Positions 2,264 through 37,395 of a DNA stretch of 38,837 nt are shown piece by piece. Both the position numbers and the translations under genes were made by a program. Each line of letters begins with the position of its first letter. The stretch's first letter is position 1. Source of the stretch: a gamma proteobacterium HTCC5015 (GTDB taxonomy: Bacteria > Pseudomonadota > Gammaproteobacteria > HTCC5015); the NCBI GenBank assembly GCA_000155715.1, contig DS990611.1, forward strand, positions 1-38,837. The letters are read 5' to 3'. The notes under the pieces are model-generated. The model had not been told where the DNA came from. It did not search any database and saw nothing but the letters and a program-made list of their open reading frames with translations.

Positions 2264-2440
2264 CCCCCTATTCTAGGGGGGATATCCTCCCATTGTAGAT
2301 AAAGACAGCGACGCTACCGAATGCGCCAACATTCGGTGGCGCCATCGATCCACGGTGCAAACACCACCGTGAGCCGACCAGGGCTGCCCTGCTGTGCACA
2401 GCGCAGGGAGCGTACCACAAATCTAACAAGGCTCACGAAA
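2264..2440 (+). promoter_or_regulatory. Hairpin-rich leader of the second methyltransferase gene (candidate structured RNA)
   Basis: This gap holds a chain of inverted repeats. H0: CCCCCTA-TTC-TAGGGGG (2264-2280). P1: CGCTACCGAATG (2312-2323) with CATTCGGTGGCG (2330-2341), 12 bp with one G-U pair and a 6-nt loop. P2: CACGGTG (2351-2357) with CACCGTG (2365-2371). P3: CAGGG-CTG-CCCTG (2379-2391), which competes with P3': CCCTGC (2387-2392) with GCAGGG (2403-2408). P2': CGTGAGCC (2368-2375) with GGCTCACG (2430-2437). P2 and P2' share 2368-2371, so they exclude each other. P2' covers the second half of the Shine-Dalgarno AAGG (2428-2431) and the bases before the ATG at 2441. The layout fits a two-state translational switch, but no known riboswitch class is recognised. 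Confidence 0.5.
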
Positions 2441-3247
2441 ATGCATAAACCAATCATTCCATGGATGGGCGGAAAAGGCCGCCTCATCGACTGGATTATC
2501 CCTAAATTTCCAGAGCACCAATGTTATGTCGAAGCGTTCGCCGGCGCGGGCGCCATTTACTTTGCCAAGCCGCCGACGCGCGTAGAGATCCTCAATGATG
2601 TGAATAACGAGCTGGTAAACCTTTACCGAGTGCTAAAGCACCATCCCGAAGAGCTCGTGCGCCAATTTAAATGGGCTCTCTCTAGTCGCAAAATCTACGA
2701 ATGGCACCAGGCCACACCGCCCGAGTCACTCACAGACATTCAGCGAGCCGCCCGTTTTTACTACCTCCAAAAGTTGGCTTTTGGTGGCAAGGTCGAAGGC
2801 CAGTCCTTTGGCACTGCTACCACATCACCGCCGCGGCTAAATCTCTTTCGCCTGGAAGAGGATCTCAGCCAAGCTCACCTGAGATTACAGTCCACCTATA
2901 TCGAGCACCTGAGCTGGGAAAAAGTGGTGCAAAAGTACGATAGAGAGCACACGCTCCATTATCTGGATCCGCCGTACTGGGACACGGCAGGCTATGGGGT
3001 TGATTTCGAGTGGCATCACTACGAAAAAATGGCCGAAATGTCCAAGTCAATAAAGGGGAAGATGATCATTAGTATCAATGATCACCCAGATATCCGCGCG
3101 CTTTTTAATGGCTGTTATATGGAGTCTCGTCCATTCCGCTACACGGTGGGTGGTGGCTCGGGAACTGACTGCAACGAGCTGCTCATTTGGAATGAGGCAG
3201 CCAATAAAGCCCCCAAAATGCAGGCCGATTTACTCGCTCAGCTCTAA
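2441..3247 (+). CDS. D12-class N6-adenine DNA methyltransferase (Dam-like), second copy
   Basis: The product (268 aa from ATG 2441) is a SAM-dependent adenine methyltransferase with PWMGGK at 7-12, YVEAFAGAG at 29-37 and DPPY at 176-179. An upstream ATG at 2321 would add 40 residues, but it lies inside hairpin P1 and the added residues do not resemble the family. ATG 2441 has AAGG (2428-2431) nine bases upstream and starts right before the conserved N-terminal motif. Protein sequence and base composition differ clearly from the first methyltransferase, so the two were probably acquired separately. Its last 18 bases overlap the 3' end of the convergent integrase gene. It resembles phage and prophage Dam proteins; specificity is unknown. 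Confidence 0.87.
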   Translation: MHKPIIPWMGGKGRLIDWIIPKFPEHQCYVEAFAGAGAIYFAKPPTRVEILNDVNNELVNLYRVLKHHPEELVRQFKWALSSRKIYEWHQATPPESLTDIQRAARFYYLQKLAFGGKVEGQSFGTATTSPPRLNLFRLEEDLSQAHLRLQSTYIEHLSWEKVVQKYDREHTLHYLDPPYWDTAGYGVDFEWHHYEKMAEMSKSIKGKMIISINDHPDIRALFNGCYMESRPFRYTVGGGSGTDCNELLIWNEAANKAPKMQADLLAQL

Positions 3248-4306
3248 CGTTAGCCAGCTCCAGCCTTGGTATTTGTCAAAGTGCTCAAGTTGTAGAAGGT
3301 GGGTATATCGCTGAAGGCTTGCCCAGCTCTTGTGGCCACTAATCTTAGCTACCACAGGAATTTGCTGGCCAATCTCAAATTGGTGGGTGATGGCTTCATG
3401 TCGCAAGTCGTGAAAGTGTAAGTCCTCGATGCCCAGTATCTTGCAGGTTCGTGTAAATGCTGAGCCTACCGATTTAGAGTTGTAGGGAAATATCCTCTCA
3501 TCGATCTGCGGCATTTGATCAATGATTGCCATAGCCCGAGCGGGCAGGGCGCACCACGTATCGGTCTTTTCTCGAGGGTGTTTCATATCTCTAACCAGTA
3601 CCCGAGAGTTGGCGCGATCGAGGTCACTCCACTGGATTCTGCAAATTTCATCTTGTCGGCGGGTCGAAAATAGCGCAAATAGAGTGATAGGCACCATTGG
3701 TATGGTGGCGCGCTTGTCACGGCTCGAGAAGCTTTCGAGTAGTTGATCCAGTTCGAGAAGCTCGGGGCGCCTATCTCGCTTTTTCGACGCCGCAATGAGC
3801 CGTTCTTTCTTTGCGATGACCTGAGCCTCTTTTATGGATGTTAGCTTTAAAGTCAGGTTTCGCGCGGCCGACACAGACTGGAAGGCTGTGCTCAGCCAAA
3901 TTAAGTCATTCTTCACGGTCGCTGGCCCGGCACCCGAAGCGCGTCTATCGCGGACATGCTGCAATACCTCGGCGGTAGTGAGGGTGGTTGCATCTTTGTC
4001 GGAAATGTCGTGGTTGATTAGCTTTTTCAGGTCGGCCAGCTTGCTGCGGCCAAACGCCATCAGGTCTTGGTAGTCCTCCAAGTAATACGTTAGTACATTG
4101 CCAACACTCGGTCTTTCAGCGGTGGCCGCCGCTAGGCCGCCCGGTTTCATGAGCTCAGCTTCACGCTGAATGGCCCATTCCTTTACAATACTGCGCTTGT
4201 CGGCAGAGAAAGACTCGCTATAGGGGCGTAGGCCCTTGCGATTGATTCGGATCTGCGCGGTATAGCGGATTCCTTTCTTGGTTTTCCGTGGTGTAATTGT
4301 TGCCAT
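3230..4306 (-). CDS. Tyrosine recombinase / integrase of a dusA-targeted island
   Basis: This 358-aa site-specific recombinase has the catalytic set R...HxxR...H...Y: Arg in STRRQDEIC (about 217), H-D-L-R (about 299-302), His in SGHKS (about 325) and Tyr in LQRYTHL (about 334). The N-terminal 55 residues form a basic arm-binding-like domain, followed by a SAM-like core-binding domain. I chose ATG 4306; a TTG at 4315 would add three residues. The gene reads away from dusA, with its start 86 bp from the dusA start. That geometry is typical of the known integrase family that inserts elements into the 5' end of dusA. A TATAAT box at 4346-4351 (minus strand) lies within a repeat cluster that could mediate autoregulation. 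Confidence 0.93.
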   Translation of the reverse strand: MATITPRKTKKGIRYTAQIRINRKGLRPYSESFSADKRSIVKEWAIQREAELMKPGGLAAATAERPSVGNVLTYYLEDYQDLMAFGRSKLADLKKLINHDISDKDATTLTTAEVLQHVRDRRASGAGPATVKNDLIWLSTAFQSVSAARNLTLKLTSIKEAQVIAKKERLIAASKKRDRRPELLELDQLLESFSSRDKRATIPMVPITLFALFSTRRQDEICRIQWSDLDRANSRVLVRDMKHPREKTDTWCALPARAMAIIDQMPQIDERIFPYNSKSVGSAFTRTCKILGIEDLHFHDLRHEAITHQFEIGQQIPVVAKISGHKSWASLQRYTHLLQLEHFDKYQGWSWLTLELSE

Positions 4307-4317
4307 TGTGTTCAAAA

Positions 4318-4391: not shown

Positions 4392-5435
4392 GTGGCAAAA
4401 CCAGCAACAGCAAAAAAACCTGTTAAATCAGGCAAAAGCCCCGTCAAATCAGCGTTTCCGCTAGATCGCACTCTATCCGTCGCGCCCATGATGGATTGGA
4501 CGGACCGTCATTGCCGCTATTTTCACCGCCTGTTGTCACCTCACGCGTTGCTCTACACAGAAATGGTCACCACAGGGGCTTTGTTGCACGGTAATGTGTC
4601 GCGTCATTTGGCGTTTCACAGTGATGAGCATCCTGTGGCGCTACAGTTGGGTGGGTCGGAGCCCGAAGCGATGGCGCGCTGCGCAGAGCTGGCTGAGCGC
4701 TGGGGCTACGATGAAGTGAATATCAATGTCGGTTGTCCGAGTGATCGAGTGCAGTCGGGAGCCTTTGGTGCTTGCCTGATGGCGGAACCCGATACGGTGG
4801 CCTCCTGCGTGGCGGCGATGAAGTCGGCGGTATCGATTCCCGTCACCGTGAAAACGCGCATCGGTATCGACGACATGGATGACTATCAGAATTTGTTTGA
4901 TTTTACGGCTAAGGTGATCGCCGCCAACTGCGACAACCTCACCGTGCATGCTCGCAAGGCTTGGTTAAAGGGGTTAAGCCCGAAAGAGAACCGAGACATT
5001 CCTCCACTGATGTACGACAAGGTGTACCAACTCAAGCGCGATTACCCCGAGCTGGAGGTGTGCATCAACGGTGGTATTACGGACTCGGCTTCGGTGTCTG
5101 AGCATCTGCGCCACACGGATGGCGTCATGATCGGTCGCGCGGCGTACCAAAACCCTTGGTGGTTAGTGGAGTTGGAGCAAAACTTGTTTGATGAATTACA
5201 TCGACCGACGCAGCACGAGGTGGTTGAGGGTATGTTGGAGTATATCGAAGCCGAATTGCTGGCGGGTGGTCAGCTCAAACATATTACTCGGCATATGTTG
5301 GGCTTGTTTCAGGCGGTTCCCGGTGCCAAGCAGTGGCGGCGGCACTTAAGTGAAAATGCGCACTTGCCTGGCGCTGGGCCCGAATTACTGAGAGCGGCTG
5401 CGGCGAAGGTCTCGCCGGAGCCTGTCTCTTGGTGA
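4392..5435 (+). CDS. dusA: tRNA-dihydrouridine synthase A
   Basis: DusA reduces uridine to dihydrouridine in the tRNA D-loop using FMN and NADPH. Visible family features are [13 protein letters not shown] at about 31-43, [10 protein letters not shown] with the catalytic Cys near residue 115, [10 protein letters not shown], and the DusA-specific [17 protein letters not shown]. The 347-aa product is close to the usual length. The GTG start at 4392 gives a Lys/Ala/Pro-rich tail of about 27 residues before the conserved fold; no strong Shine-Dalgarno is seen. The neighbouring integrase indicates that the present promoter and first codons come from the inserted element, which then restores an intact reading frame. 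A start at ATG 4488 is possible but would remove a conserved beta strand. Confidence 0.95.
4480..4515. other. Likely attachment site core inside the 5' end of dusA
   Basis: Known dusA-targeting integrases recombine in the region coding for the conserved [13 protein letters not shown] segment. Here that segment is encoded at about 4476-4517. It contains an odd palindrome, GACGG-A-CCGTC (4499-4509), as expected for paired core-binding sites of a tyrosine recombinase. The second attachment site should lie beyond the left edge of the window, so the exact crossover cannot be set here. Confidence 0.45.
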
Positions 5436-6651: not shown

Positions 6652-6658
6652 CCGCGCC

Positions 6659-6998
<340 letters not shown>

Positions 6999-7006
6999 TC
7001 GATATT

Positions 7007-32915: not shown

Positions 32916-33533
32916 TCAGGCGTTGACTTCATCCGCGTATTCGGCGGCGTATACCGAGTAGAGGCCGTGCAGGTGCGCGACTTCTTTGCGTAGATGGTCT
33001 AGGCCGTGATTGTTTTGGATAATATCATCGGCTGCGGCAAGTCGCTCTTCGCGGGAAATCTGGGCATCAAAAATATTGCGCACCTGTTCTTCACTTAGAG
33101 AGTCGCGCTGCATCACGCGCTCCAGTTGGCTGTGCTCATCGACATCGACGACCAGTACACGATCAATCATTTCCCAGTGACCGGTATCGATGAGCAGTGG
33201 GATGACCATCAGGGCGTATTCGCTCTCGCACTGTTTCAGTTCTTCCATCATATGTTGACGGATGGCGGGGTGGGTAATGGCCTCAAGCTCTAGGCGTTTT
33301 TCAGGCGCCGAGAACACAATATCTCTTAGAGCTGCTCTATCTAGGTGGCCATCGGCATCGAGTACTTGCTCACCAAATTTGGCAACAATACGGCTGAGGG
33401 TGGGCTGTCCGGGCTCGACGATTTTTCGCGATGCAATATCGGCGTCGATAACGGGGATGCCGAGTTCGTCAAACAAGTTTGCCACTGTCGTCTTGCCGCT
33501 GCCGATGCCACCAGTAATGCCAATTACATACAT
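32916..33533 (-). CDS. coaE: Dephospho-CoA kinase
   Basis: CoaE phosphorylates dephospho-CoA in the last step of CoA synthesis. The 205-aa product has the P-loop GITGGIGSGKTTVANLF at about 5-21, DADIASRKIVEPG near 30-42, the lid-like LSEEQVRNIFDAQIS near 148-162, and ADDIIQNNHG near the C-terminus. The gene lies 24 bp after pilD and is commonly linked to it. Confidence 0.97.
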   Translation of the reverse strand: MYVIGITGGIGSGKTTVANLFDELGIPVIDADIASRKIVEPGQPTLSRIVAKFGEQVLDADGHLDRAALRDIVFSAPEKRLELEAITHPAIRQHMMEELKQCESEYALMVIPLLIDTGHWEMIDRVLVVDVDEHSQLERVMQRDSLSEEQVRNIFDAQISREERLAAADDIIQNNHGLDHLRKEVAHLHGLYSVYAAEYADEVNA

Positions 33534-33557
33534 GTTCGCCCCCCTGAGAGTGAATCC

Positions 33558-34442
33558 CTAGAAAGTGGCTAGGTAGGAGTCCATGATACGGTCTCCCCAG
33601 AGAAAGGCAATCCAGCCAGCAATGGCCAAATAGGGACCAAAGGGCATGGGCTGAGCTTTGTCTCTCCCCTGTATCAAAATTAGACCGAGCCCAAGGATAG
33701 CGCCCGACATGGCAGACAGCACAATGACCAGTGGCAGCATTGATGGCCCAGTCCAAGCACCGATCAGCGCGAGCAATTTGAAGTCGCCGTAGCCCATACC
33801 TTCTTTACCCGTGACCAGCTTGAACAGCCAGTAAACACTCCAAAGCGAGAGGTAGCCCAACGTTGCCCCCAAAATAGCTTGGCTGGGGTCGACAAACAGA
33901 GGCTTGAGGCTGAGTAGCAATCCGAGCCAGAGCAAGGGAAGCGTCATGGCATCGGGTAGCATTTGAATCTTGATGTCGATGCCGCTCATCGCGATGAGGT
34001 AAAGCGTTAATACGGCCGCCGCTAGAAAACCCCAAGAGGGGCCAAATTCGATTGCCGTGACGGTCACTAGAGCTGCAGTCAACAACTCCACCGCAGGGTA
34101 CTGCAATGAAATTTTACTTTTACAGCCTTTGCAGCGCCCTCGCAGCATAAGGTAGCTGAGCACGGGAATGTTTTGCCACGGCTTAATACTGTGCCCGCAG
34201 TGCGGGCAACAGGAAGCCGGTTTGATTAAATTAAAGCCCTCTTGGTCCACGCCCGATTGCTGAGCAGGACACTCTGTGCCGAAATAGTCTTCGCAGCTCT
34301 CTTTAAATTCGCGCTCCATCATGATGGGGAAGCGATGGATCACCACATTGAGGAAGCTGCCAACACAGAGGGCAAAAATAAAAACGATGGTGTAGAAAAA
34401 AAACGGGTTCTGTTCGAACCCGTGGATAATATCTAGCAACAT
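33558..34442 (-). CDS. pilD: Type IV prepilin peptidase / N-methyltransferase PilD
   Basis: PilD cuts the leader of type IV prepilins and methylates the new N-terminus. The 294-aa inner-membrane protein has two CxxC pairs, CPHCGHS (about 73-79) and CKGCKSK (about 102-108), the aspartates of GIDIKIQMLPD (about 150-160) and GYGDFKLLAL (about 217-226), and about seven transmembrane segments. It starts nine bases after pilC. It should process the two pilins encoded at the end of the window. Confidence 0.96.
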   Translation of the reverse strand: MLLDIIHGFEQNPFFFYTIVFIFALCVGSFLNVVIHRFPIMMEREFKESCEDYFGTECPAQQSGVDQEGFNLIKPASCCPHCGHSIKPWQNIPVLSYLMLRGRCKGCKSKISLQYPAVELLTAALVTVTAIEFGPSWGFLAAAVLTLYLIAMSGIDIKIQMLPDAMTLPLLWLGLLLSLKPLFVDPSQAILGATLGYLSLWSVYWLFKLVTGKEGMGYGDFKLLALIGAWTGPSMLPLVIVLSAMSGAILGLGLILIQGRDKAQPMPFGPYLAIAGWIAFLWGDRIMDSYLATF

Positions 34443-34451
34443 GATAAAGCC

Positions 34452-35678
34452 TTATCCGCCAACCACTTGGCCCATTTTGAAAATGGGAAGATACATTGCG
34501 ATCACTAAGCCGCCGACCAAAACACCTAGAACCGCCATAATCATAGGCTCCATGAGGGAACTTAAGTTGTCCACAGTGTTGTCAACTTCTTCTTCATAAA
34601 AATCCGCTACTTTTAGTAGCATGCTGTCAATCGAACCCGATTCCTCGCCGATTTGAACCATGGCCAACATCATGTTGGGGAATAAATTTGTTCGGCGCAT
34701 TGACGCTGTGAGTGGGTCACCAGAAGAGATTTCGTCTCGAATTTGGTAGATGGCTTGTTCGTAAACATGGTTGTTCACAGCGCCGGAAATGGAATTCATC
34801 GCTTCAACCAAAGGGACACCAGCAGCAAACATTGTGGCCAGTGTTCGTGCAAAGCGTGCATGAATGGATGTGTTTAAAATCCCACCAAAAATTGGCAGCT
34901 TGAGGGATAGCTTGTCCAAGTAGATGCCAACTGCTGGAACACGCTTTTTTAGCTGAATGAAGCCAAAGCCCAGCCCTACTGTTATGGCGATGAGAATGAA
35001 AATATTGCTTCTCATCCAACGTGAGGCGTCTACGACTAACTGAGTGAAGGCCGGTAAATCCGCCCCAAACCCTTGGAAAATAGATTCGAATTGCGGTACG
35101 ACGAATACCATCAAAATAACTGTGACTACAGCAGCCATGACCATTACAGCGATTGGGTAAGTCATCGCCTTCTTAATCTTTTTCTTGATGGCTTCACTCT
35201 TCTCTTTATAGGTAGCTACTTTATCTAGCAAAGTTTCTAGCGTACCCGAAGCTTCGCCTGAAGCTACGAGGTTCACAAATAAACTGTCAAAATGGTCTGG
35301 ATGGGCGGCAAGAGCATCGGCAAAGTTGGCCCCACCCTCTACGTCATTTTTAATGTCGTAAATGAGCTTTTTCATCCGCGGATTGTCTGCGCTACTGCCA
35401 ACAATTTCAAAAGCTTGTACCAAGGGAACGCCTGAAGACATCATGGTCGCCATTTGACGAGCAAAAACGGCAATGTCGGAAGCTTTAATTTTCTTTCCAG
35501 TGTCGCCTGAACTGAAGAGAGGCTTCGGTTTTTTACGCACGCTTTGTGGGGTAATGCCGCGTTGGCGTAATTGGGCTTTTACCATATCGCCGTTAATACC
35601 GTCGATTTCACCTTCGACCTTGCGGCCCTTACGATCCATCCCCTTGTAGCTAAAAGTTACTTTGGTTTTTTCTGCCAT
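34452..35678 (-). CDS. pilC: Type IV pilus platform protein PilC
   Basis: PilC is the inner-membrane platform on which the PilB and PilT motors act. The 408-aa product holds two T2SS-F domains (about 75-198 and 280-400), each with a hydrophobic segment; FARQMATMMSSGVPLVQAFEIV near 77-98 and FARTLATMFAAGVPLVEAM near 279-297 are the paired repeat starts. A short gap of four bases separates it from pilB, so the genes are coupled. Confidence 0.96.
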   Translation of the reverse strand: MAEKTKVTFSYKGMDRKGRKVEGEIDGINGDMVKAQLRQRGITPQSVRKKPKPLFSSGDTGKKIKASDIAVFARQMATMMSSGVPLVQAFEIVGSSADNPRMKKLIYDIKNDVEGGANFADALAAHPDHFDSLFVNLVASGEASGTLETLLDKVATYKEKSEAIKKKIKKAMTYPIAVMVMAAVVTVILMVFVVPQFESIFQGFGADLPAFTQLVVDASRWMRSNIFILIAITVGLGFGFIQLKKRVPAVGIYLDKLSLKLPIFGGILNTSIHARFARTLATMFAAGVPLVEAMNSISGAVNNHVYEQAIYQIRDEISSGDPLTASMRRTNLFPNMMLAMVQIGEESGSIDSMLLKVADFYEEEVDNTVDNLSSLMEPMIMAVLGVLVGGLVIAMYLPIFKMGQVVGG

Positions 35679-35682
35679 TGTC

Positions 35683-37395
35683 TTAATCCATGGTCACGCG
35701 GTTACACTCAGCAAGGCTTGTTACGCCTTGCTTAACTTTTAACAGACCCGAGCGGCGTATGTCGTTAATGCCCTCTTTGGCCGCCTGTTCGCCCAACTCA
35801 ATGGCATTAGCGCCTTGCATAATGAGTTTTGAAGTGGCTTCGGAGATCGGCATCACTTGATAGATGCCCACACGCCCTTTGTAGCCTTCATTACAACTGG
35901 GGCAACCAACGGCTTTATACAATTTTAAATCATCGACTTCGTCCTCTTTAAAGCCTGCTTCTAGCAGCGCTTCACGGGGAATGTCGTCGGGCTCTTTGCA
36001 TTCGCTGCACAAGCGACGCGCAAGGCGCTGAGCAATAATTAAGTTGACTGCAGTAGCCAAGTTAAAGGCGGGCACACCCATGTTAATCATGCGCGCTAGG
36101 GTTTGAGGGGCGTCGTTAGTATGCAGTGTCGACATTACCATGTGACCCGTTTGGGCCGCTTTAATGGCAATGCTGGCGGTTTCTAGATCACGGATCTCGC
36201 CGACCATGATGATGTCGGGGTCTTGGCGTAGAAAGGCTTTCAACGCCGATGAAAAGTCGAGGCCCTGCTTGGGGTTGACGTTGACCTGATTGATGCCGGG
36301 CAGGTTGATCTCGGCGGGATCTTCCGCTGTGGATATGTTGCGCTCTTCGGTATTGAGAATATTTAGTCCCGTGTAGAGCGATACGGTTTTGCCGCTTCCC
36401 GTAGGGCCTGTGACCAAAATCATGCCGTAGGGGTTGTTTAGAGCCCTCATGTAGGCCTCTTTTTGCTCGGGCTCGTAGCCCAGCATGTCGATACCTAGGT
36501 TGGCGCTGCTGGGGTCGAGAATTCGCAATACAATTTTTTCACCGAACAGGGTGGGGCAGGTATTAACGCGAAAATCGATGGCGCGGGTTTTGGATAGCTT
36601 GAGCTTAATACGGCCATCTTGGGGCACGCGGCGCTCAGAAATATCCATTCGCGACATGACTTTAATTCGCGCAATAATCCGCGGCGTCATGCTGGTGGGG
36701 GGCTTGTTGATTTCTTTCAGCATGCCATCCACGCGAAAACGCACGCGGGTAAATTTTTCATAGGGTTCAAAGTGAATATCTGACGCCCCCTTGTTGATGG
36801 CGTCGAGCAGTACCTTGTTGACATATTTAACGACGGGCGTGTCATCGGCGCCCGCCGCAGGGTCGCTGGCGTCGCTCTCTTGTTCTTCTTCAGCGAGGTC
36901 TAGGTCTTCCAAGTCGTCGTCTAAATCGTCTAACCCAGAGCCCGTGTCATTTTCGATGGATTCTAGGGCCGCCAGTAGCTTGTCATGCTCGACGAGAATC
37001 GGCTCGGTGGTTAAACCGGTGTTGAACTTAATGTCGTCAACCGCACTGAGCTTTAGTGGGTCGGAAATGGCTAGAAAGAGCCGAGAACCTCGTTTAGCCA
37101 ACGGCACGGCTTGATGTTTTTTTAGAAGTTCATGGTCAACTAACTTGGTCGTTTCTGGATCAATGTCGATAGCAGCAAGGTCGCAGCTAGGCAGCCCGAA
37201 TTCTTGGCTGGCAATACCTGCCACAGCCTTGGCGGAGACCACTTTTTTGCCAACGGCGTAGTCAATGAAGGATTGTTTGTTTTTCTGTGCTTCGGCGAGA
37301 GCCTGCTGTGCCGCCTCTTCCGTCAGCACTTCCTTTAGCACTAATTTGCGTGGAAAGCCCGTTAGTGGGGGTAGCTTTTTTTCAGTAGTAGCCAT
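35683..37395 (-). CDS. pilB: Type IV pilus assembly ATPase PilB
   Basis: PilB is the hexameric motor for pilus extension. The 570-aa product has an N-terminal MshEN-like domain, an acidic linker (DDLDDDLEDLDLAEEEQE, about 157-174), Walker A GPTGSGKTVSLY near 334-345, Walker B-like IIMVGEIRDLETA near 397-409, and a zinc-type tetracysteine pair, CSEC and CPSC, near 465 and 500. The start is ATG 37395. It is first in the pilBCD-coaE-zapD string, 77 bp after the second pilin gene. Confidence 0.97.
   Translation of the reverse strand: MATTEKKLPPLTGFPRKLVLKEVLTEEAAQQALAEAQKNKQSFIDYAVGKKVVSAKAVAGIASQEFGLPSCDLAAIDIDPETTKLVDHELLKKHQAVPLAKRGSRLFLAISDPLKLSAVDDIKFNTGLTTEPILVEHDKLLAALESIENDTGSGLDDLDDDLEDLDLAEEEQESDASDPAAGADDTPVVKYVNKVLLDAINKGASDIHFEPYEKFTRVRFRVDGMLKEINKPPTSMTPRIIARIKVMSRMDISERRVPQDGRIKLKLSKTRAIDFRVNTCPTLFGEKIVLRILDPSSANLGIDMLGYEPEQKEAYMRALNNPYGMILVTGPTGSGKTVSLYTGLNILNTEERNISTAEDPAEINLPGINQVNVNPKQGLDFSSALKAFLRQDPDIIMVGEIRDLETASIAIKAAQTGHMVMSTLHTNDAPQTLARMINMGVPAFNLATAVNLIIAQRLARRLCSECKEPDDIPREALLEAGFKEDEVDDLKLYKAVGCPSCNEGYKGRVGIYQVMPISEATSKLIMQGANAIELGEQAAKEGINDIRRSGLLKVKQGVTSLAECNRVTMD

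Follow-up and report, generated by a model that had tools for sequence, protein, structure and literature searches.

Some late genes of phage T4 are timed by hairpins that hide the ribosome binding site, depending on whether the transcript is an early or a late one. The M.EcoGII-like adenine methyltransferases encoded by prophages of E. coli, which are about 350 amino acids long, are silent in lysogens (PMC12707154). The accessible portions of PMC12707154 and PMC11551740 contain no mention of an RNA leader for these enzymes. Here, we describe a structured leader upstream of a DNA methyltransferase gene in the window, by which we mean the whole stretch of 38,837 nucleotides that was analysed and which is a complete contig of a 2.6-Mb genome. 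The leader probably acts in cis as a translational switch with two states, by which phage DNA-modification enzymes are kept silent in the prophage until they are needed. As judged from sequence comparisons, the two-state fold and its association with these genes are well supported; from them we infer that the leader affects translation, that its default is OFF and that its trigger is lytic, as well as the nature of that trigger.

The leader and its surroundings

A gap of 211 bases in the window separates two adenine methyltransferase genes of the D12 class, dam1 (1372-2229) and dam2 (2441-3247), and no Com-like ORF was found between them. These tandem genes differ from each other, and only the second carries the leader. 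The leader and the neighbouring genes contain the following features.

2301-2443, plus strand: conserved leader RNA, whole element, up to the dam start codon (covariance model R1, 87.5 bits, E 2.9e-26, the window itself being among the 16 seeds of R1; R2, 85.9 bits)
2306-2309, plus strand: 5' arm of P1, CAGC, state A, partner 2383-2386 (sequence; family helix 1, double-sided changes in 6/6 pairs)
2310-2343, plus strand: P2 hairpin, 12 pairs and one A-C mismatch, both states (sequence; family helix 2, double-sided changes in 12/12 pairs)
2351-2357, plus strand: 5' arm of P3, CACGGTG, state A, called P2 in the earlier note (sequence; family helix 3, double-sided changes in 5/5 pairs)
2365-2371, plus strand: 3' arm of P3, CACCGTG, of which 2368-2371 is common to P3 and P3' (sequence)
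2368-2375, plus strand: 5' arm of P3', CGTGAGCC, state B, called P2' in the earlier note (duplex permutation test)
2383-2386, plus strand: strand common to P1 and P1', pairing with 2306-2309 in P1 and, through 2383-2385, with 2409-2411 in P1' (covariation for P1; permutation test for P1')
2387-2408, plus strand: P4 hairpin around the perfect 12-bp palindrome GCTGTGCACAGC at 2391-2402 (family helix 4; palindrome statistics)
2409-2411, plus strand: 3' arm of P1', AGC, lengthening P4 in state B (sequence)
2430-2437, plus strand: 3' arm of P3', GGCTCACG, overlapping the Shine-Dalgarno sequence AAGG at 2428-2431 (sequence; duplex test)
2441-3247, plus strand: the controlled gene, D12-class adenine DNA methyltransferase, 268 amino acids (PF02086, 100 bits; phrog_56)
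3230-4315, minus strand: phage integrase gene

The product of the controlled gene also matched TIGR00571 dam with 103 bits, slightly below the cut-off of 114.85. Beyond the integrase gene, a gene starting at 4392 encodes what we take, from its own sequence, to be a putative DusA-like protein, and with these two genes downstream the surroundings of the dam genes resemble the border of a prophage or island. A class A bacterial RNase P RNA is located at 6658-7002 (Rfam RF00010, 322 bits).

An earlier note on this DNA had described five or more stems here and proposed a possible two-state switch, and the stems it described are present. The 12-pair stem corresponds to P2, in which 2310-2322 pairs with 2331-2343 around the A-C mismatch, and P1 comprises just four pairs in the window member. 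The two helices said to exclude each other, 2351-2357/2365-2371 and 2368-2375/2430-2437, both use 2368-2371, and the perfect 8-bp helix between CGTGAGCC and GGCTCACG lies over part of AAGG at 2428-2431, so that the ribosome binding site is partly masked, as had been suggested. The second exclusive pair consists of CAGC 2306-2309 with GCTG 2383-2386 versus GCT 2383-2385 with AGC 2409-2411, the latter lengthening the hairpin at 2387-2408. The extent of 2264-2440 given in the note has to be revised: its stems are where it placed them, but the conserved element spans 2301-2443 and excludes the CCCCC/GGGGG hairpin CCCCCTATTCTAGGGGG at 2263-2281, which precedes the leader and has no T run. The stretch 2250-2460 folded with a predicted energy of -73.7 kcal/mol, compared to -57.6 ± 4.8 for dinucleotide shuffles (z -3.37), and none of 200 shuffles was as good.

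BLAST searches of phages and 143 relatives with the DNA of the leader as query returned chance matches only, and the family became apparent only from the homologs of the downstream gene. The regions upstream of 80 phage homologs of dam2 showed the same leader anatomy in most cases. Covariance model R1, which represents the state A structure, was built from 16 hand-picked aligned leaders and identified 79 leaders among 91 sources at E < 1e-6. A non-redundant set of 94 leaders that are at most 85% alike was used for the tests below, and another covariance model, built from 94 sequences, was applied to two additional draws of 369 and 397 genomes, which partly overlapped earlier draws. Six weak genome matches of 24-28 bits (L321, L332, L333, L337, L338 and L340) had no reference Dam or Com relative nearby and were treated as chance.

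On its sequence, the leader in the window is one member of a conserved leader RNA of about 140 nt that is absent from Rfam 15. At the gathering thresholds of Rfam release 15, the leader was unmatched in the window, in 20 dam loci and in 14 further loci, and a search at permissive E-values gave chance hits only. No description of the leader was found in the open-licence literature, and an earlier one may exist elsewhere. A conserved upstream ORF, as expected of a leader-peptide attenuator, was not found, a closed ATG uORF being present in 20/96 and an in-frame open start in 17/96.

Covariation of two competing helix sets

The state A helices P1, P2, P3 and P4 covary strongly. In the 94 leaders, all 29 modelled pairs showed double-sided changes, 90.0% of the cells held standard pairs, and the covariation was 0.533, compared to 0.149 ± 0.006 with shuffled partners and at most 0.087 when slid; the absolute values are biased towards the model because the alignment was fitted to that structure, and it is the shuffled and slid controls that carry weight. 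A second alignment of 34 sequences gave 0.576, compared to 0.170 when shuffled. The earlier note had named a lack of compensatory changes in homologous leaders as grounds for rejecting its idea, and the compensation turned out to be strong. Few unpaired positions are conserved at 90% or more and the conservation of the junction is modest, and the positions CC-A-G and A---UA are conserved outside the helices. Positions 1 and 6 of the P2 loop (columns 29 and 35 of alignment A5) co-vary between C-A and U-G, the pattern expected of isosteric wobble pairs.

The state B helices were left out of the covariance model and tested independently as duplexes by permutation. Across the 94 leaders, P3' formed within the same leader had a mean energy of -11.3 kcal/mol, compared to -7.7 kcal/mol with the pre-start regions of other leaders (z -15, 0/2000 permutations), and P1', a weak helix that uses the 3' strand of P1, gave z -4.3 (0/2000), while five control pairings that were expected to be absent gave z-values from -1.3 to +1.2. 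In 18 further loci from genome searches that did not make use of dam, P3' had z -5.3 (0/2000) and P1' z -2.6 (14/2000). A blind scan of overlapping window pairs in half of the leaders ranked P2, P4, P3, P1, P3' and P1' at the top, and it also contained one weak pairing of the segment downstream of P4 with the bases preceding the Shine-Dalgarno sequence. Variation among the 14 lambdoid leaders, which are closely related, was too low for a test of P1' and P3'; by eye, a T/G change in their shared arm is mirrored in the partners.

Two or more bases of the P3 arm are used by P3' in 91 of the 94 leaders, and the downstream arm of P3' has median positions from -13 to -3 relative to the start codon. 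The shared arm of five bases occurs in more than ten versions, nearly all of which have a matching 5' competitor and most of which also have a matching competitor before the start codon. An exact complement of four bases of the shared arm precedes the start codon in 63% of the leaders, compared to 33 ± 4% with permuted partners. Complementarity to two competitors is thus maintained in one and the same strand, as a switch requires. The leaders contain two mutually exclusive conserved folds, one of which sequesters expression signals, as is characteristic of riboswitches. The covariation of both helix sets in the 94 non-redundant leaders, together with the link to DNA-modification genes, accordingly supports the earlier note's proposal of a methyltransferase gene whose ribosome binding site is hidden by a switch, and the translational control itself is inferred from this.

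That the structure is a by-product of composition, or serves another function at the DNA level without controlling translation, is extremely improbable: the centre of P4 does behave as a DNA dyad, but P3' covaries with the region before the start codon and keeps a steady distance from it. An RNA thermometer, in which P3' melts with temperature, would likewise sequester the Shine-Dalgarno sequence. However, it would not need a conserved competitor helix, yet both P3 and P1 are conserved by covariation, and we consider a thermometer very unlikely.

With standard energies, state B was predicted to be more stable in 78 of the 94 leaders and state A in seven, with a median difference of 5 kcal/mol, and the values for the window were -55.5 for state B and -50.5 for state A. 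These predictions leave aside tertiary contacts and co-transcriptional folding, which makes state A first. The greater predicted stability of state B in most leaders favours OFF as the default. In the proposed switch, state A would be the ON state, in which P1, P2 and P3 meet in a three-way junction that P1 closes, P4 is separate and the Shine-Dalgarno sequence is free. In state B, which is the predicted default, the 3' strand of P3 would pair with the Shine-Dalgarno region as P3', leaving ribosomes unable to start, and the 3' strand of P1 would lengthen P4 as P1'. The start site would be opened in the lytic cycle by a signal that acts in trans and stabilises the P1-P2-P3 domain; the likeliest candidates are an RNA-binding factor of the host or phage and a small molecule.

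The centre of P4 is a perfect palindrome with zero spacer but variable in sequence, for example CCCGGG, TCGCGA, TGTACA, ACCGGT and GTGCAC. Self-complementary loops of four bases, in eight different sequences, were present in 66 of 90 leaders, compared to 17.4 ± 3.3 expected. The column pair with the strongest covariation in the whole alignment encloses a loop of 2 nt, and covariation was also seen between two adjacent nucleotides. A single RNA cannot form these central pairs within itself, which leaves pairing between two RNAs or a function of the feature at the DNA level, and the diversity of the palindromes argues against a single DNA-binding protein. It is conceivable, although rather doubtful, that P4 is a site of self-association at which two leader RNAs pair via their palindromic centres, so that the switch would read the concentration of its own mRNA, low in the lysogen and high after induction. 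If P4 does mediate dimerisation, it would represent a new principle for an mRNA switch.

Genes behind the leader and LexA boxes in leaderless relatives

The 200 hits to R1, 121 of which came from searches blind to dam (by the P1-P4 DNA pattern or in genomes), were followed by dam in 170 cases and by com and dam in 26. Another two, L191 and L286, precede com with other downstream genes, and the last two run into the end of their contig, in one case after com. The genes downstream of com in L191 and L286 encode a protein that weakly matches both an ABC-type ATPase and an acetyltransferase, and a formyltransferase-like protein; these com cassettes are possibly DNA-modification cassettes. The Mu-like phage B3 and many com-dam phages carry the leader upstream of com, and com is present in a minority of the homologs.

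The further genome draws added more dam and com-dam loci, as well as leaders before two kinds of PF01555 methyltransferase. The first kind is represented by L310, where P3' is GTGAGAC/GTCTCAC and the enzyme, as we read it, may also have a ParB-like N-terminal part. None of 16 loci with viral-contig relatives of this methyltransferase contained the leader, and the link to the L310 type rests for that reason on a single genome locus. The second, lambdoid type was found behind the leader in L330 and L336, and 79 of 80 phage loci with relatives of the L330 enzyme contain the leader, reaching to the start codon. Among the named phages with this type of enzyme is SfV, in which orf48 is located between Q and holin. 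In E. coli, the lambdoid-type stretch of leader plus gene was present with at least 80% query coverage in 1139 of 5426 complete genomes, about a fifth, and the KP12-type stretch in 521 genomes.

Some loci differ from this pattern. The dam reading frame behind the leader in L328 appears broken, and this copy may be decaying. In L331, a leader-like match of 41 bits lacks a methyltransferase downstream. In Pseudomonas phage Bise (L108, 1-2768), an annotated reverse transcriptase gene adjoins the leader and dam, with a four-helix-bundle protein nearby, and is possibly part of a diversity-generating retroelement.

As the leader is common to different enzyme families and to the com cassette, the common factor is phage DNA modification rather than one gene product. 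This bears on the idea that the leader is an operator bound by the product of its own gene, Dam or Com, for autoregulation. Com is a zinc-ribbon protein (PF10122), and Com of phage Mu is a translation factor for mom (papers cited in PMC4461284). However, the same RNA precedes D12 Dam, two types of PF01555 enzyme, and com with or without dam, with no product common to all, and such an operator is unlikely.

The leader is absent from 12 of 80 dam loci. A LexA-type box, CTGT-N8-ACAG, was identified upstream of dam in ten of these 12 loci and in none of the 68 with the leader (p 4e-11, a value that is too small because several of the ten loci are closely related). The loci with the box are L023, L026, L027, L029, L033, L047, L049, L060, L073 and L092, and it is placed at positions -31 to -40 in nine of them and at -80 in L092. 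We read the leader and the LexA box as what may be two ways of keeping the gene off in the lysogen.

The replacement by LexA boxes shows that timing matters, which would also fit a control that depends on the transcript and needs no ligand. As in some late genes of T4, long transcripts that read through and those from a nearby promoter would then fold differently and expression would follow promoter use, or, in a variant, state A would form first and decay to state B, giving a short burst of translation. The strands of P1 to P3 are all made before the Shine-Dalgarno strand, yet state B is predicted to be more stable, and the gene in SfV is early in the late region, after Q. However, the leader has no outstanding promoter and the window gave near-chance promoter matches only, and a purely kinetic device would have no obvious need for the conserved CC-A-G and A---UA. 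We regard this alternative as possible but less probable than not, and a switch set by a trans-acting signal as the preferred reading.

Comparison with known regulatory systems

Similar to translational riboswitches, the leader contains a junction domain closed by P1 and an alternative helix over the ribosome binding site, it covaries strongly, and it has a fixed position before one functional class of genes. It differs from them in that the genes are phage genes, P4 is palindromic, no ligand is known and the conservation of the junction is modest, being lower than in most small-molecule aptamers. The late genes of T4 are similar in that masking of the ribosome binding site in a subset of the transcripts sets the timing in the phage, but the leader differs in being a conserved RNA family with two pairs of competing helices.

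The com-mom operon of phage Mu, which the earlier note had cited as a precedent, is also a case of a phage DNA-modification gene controlled at its start site. The logic of the precedent fits, but Mu com-mom has no copy of the leader RNA: positions 33500-36717 of Mu gave no match to the leader model, and Mu was rejected as a member of the family. In other phages, com genes are often located directly behind the leader, which, unlike the situation in Mu, precedes com, or dam without com.

That unrelated enzymes are preceded by one and the same RNA, and that relatives carry a LexA box in its place, points to a common timing problem with two solutions. If the proposed switch is correct, the leader represents a new and widespread RNA family that restrains phage DNA-modification enzymes, which harm the host, until the phage needs them. 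The enzyme of the L330 type resembles M.EcoGII in its length and its split catalytic domain (PF01555), a likeness by description only, taken from PMC11551740. The switch would thereby offer an explanation for the silence of prophage methyltransferases such as the M.EcoGII-like enzymes in lysogens, a question that is directly testable in laboratory strains of E. coli.
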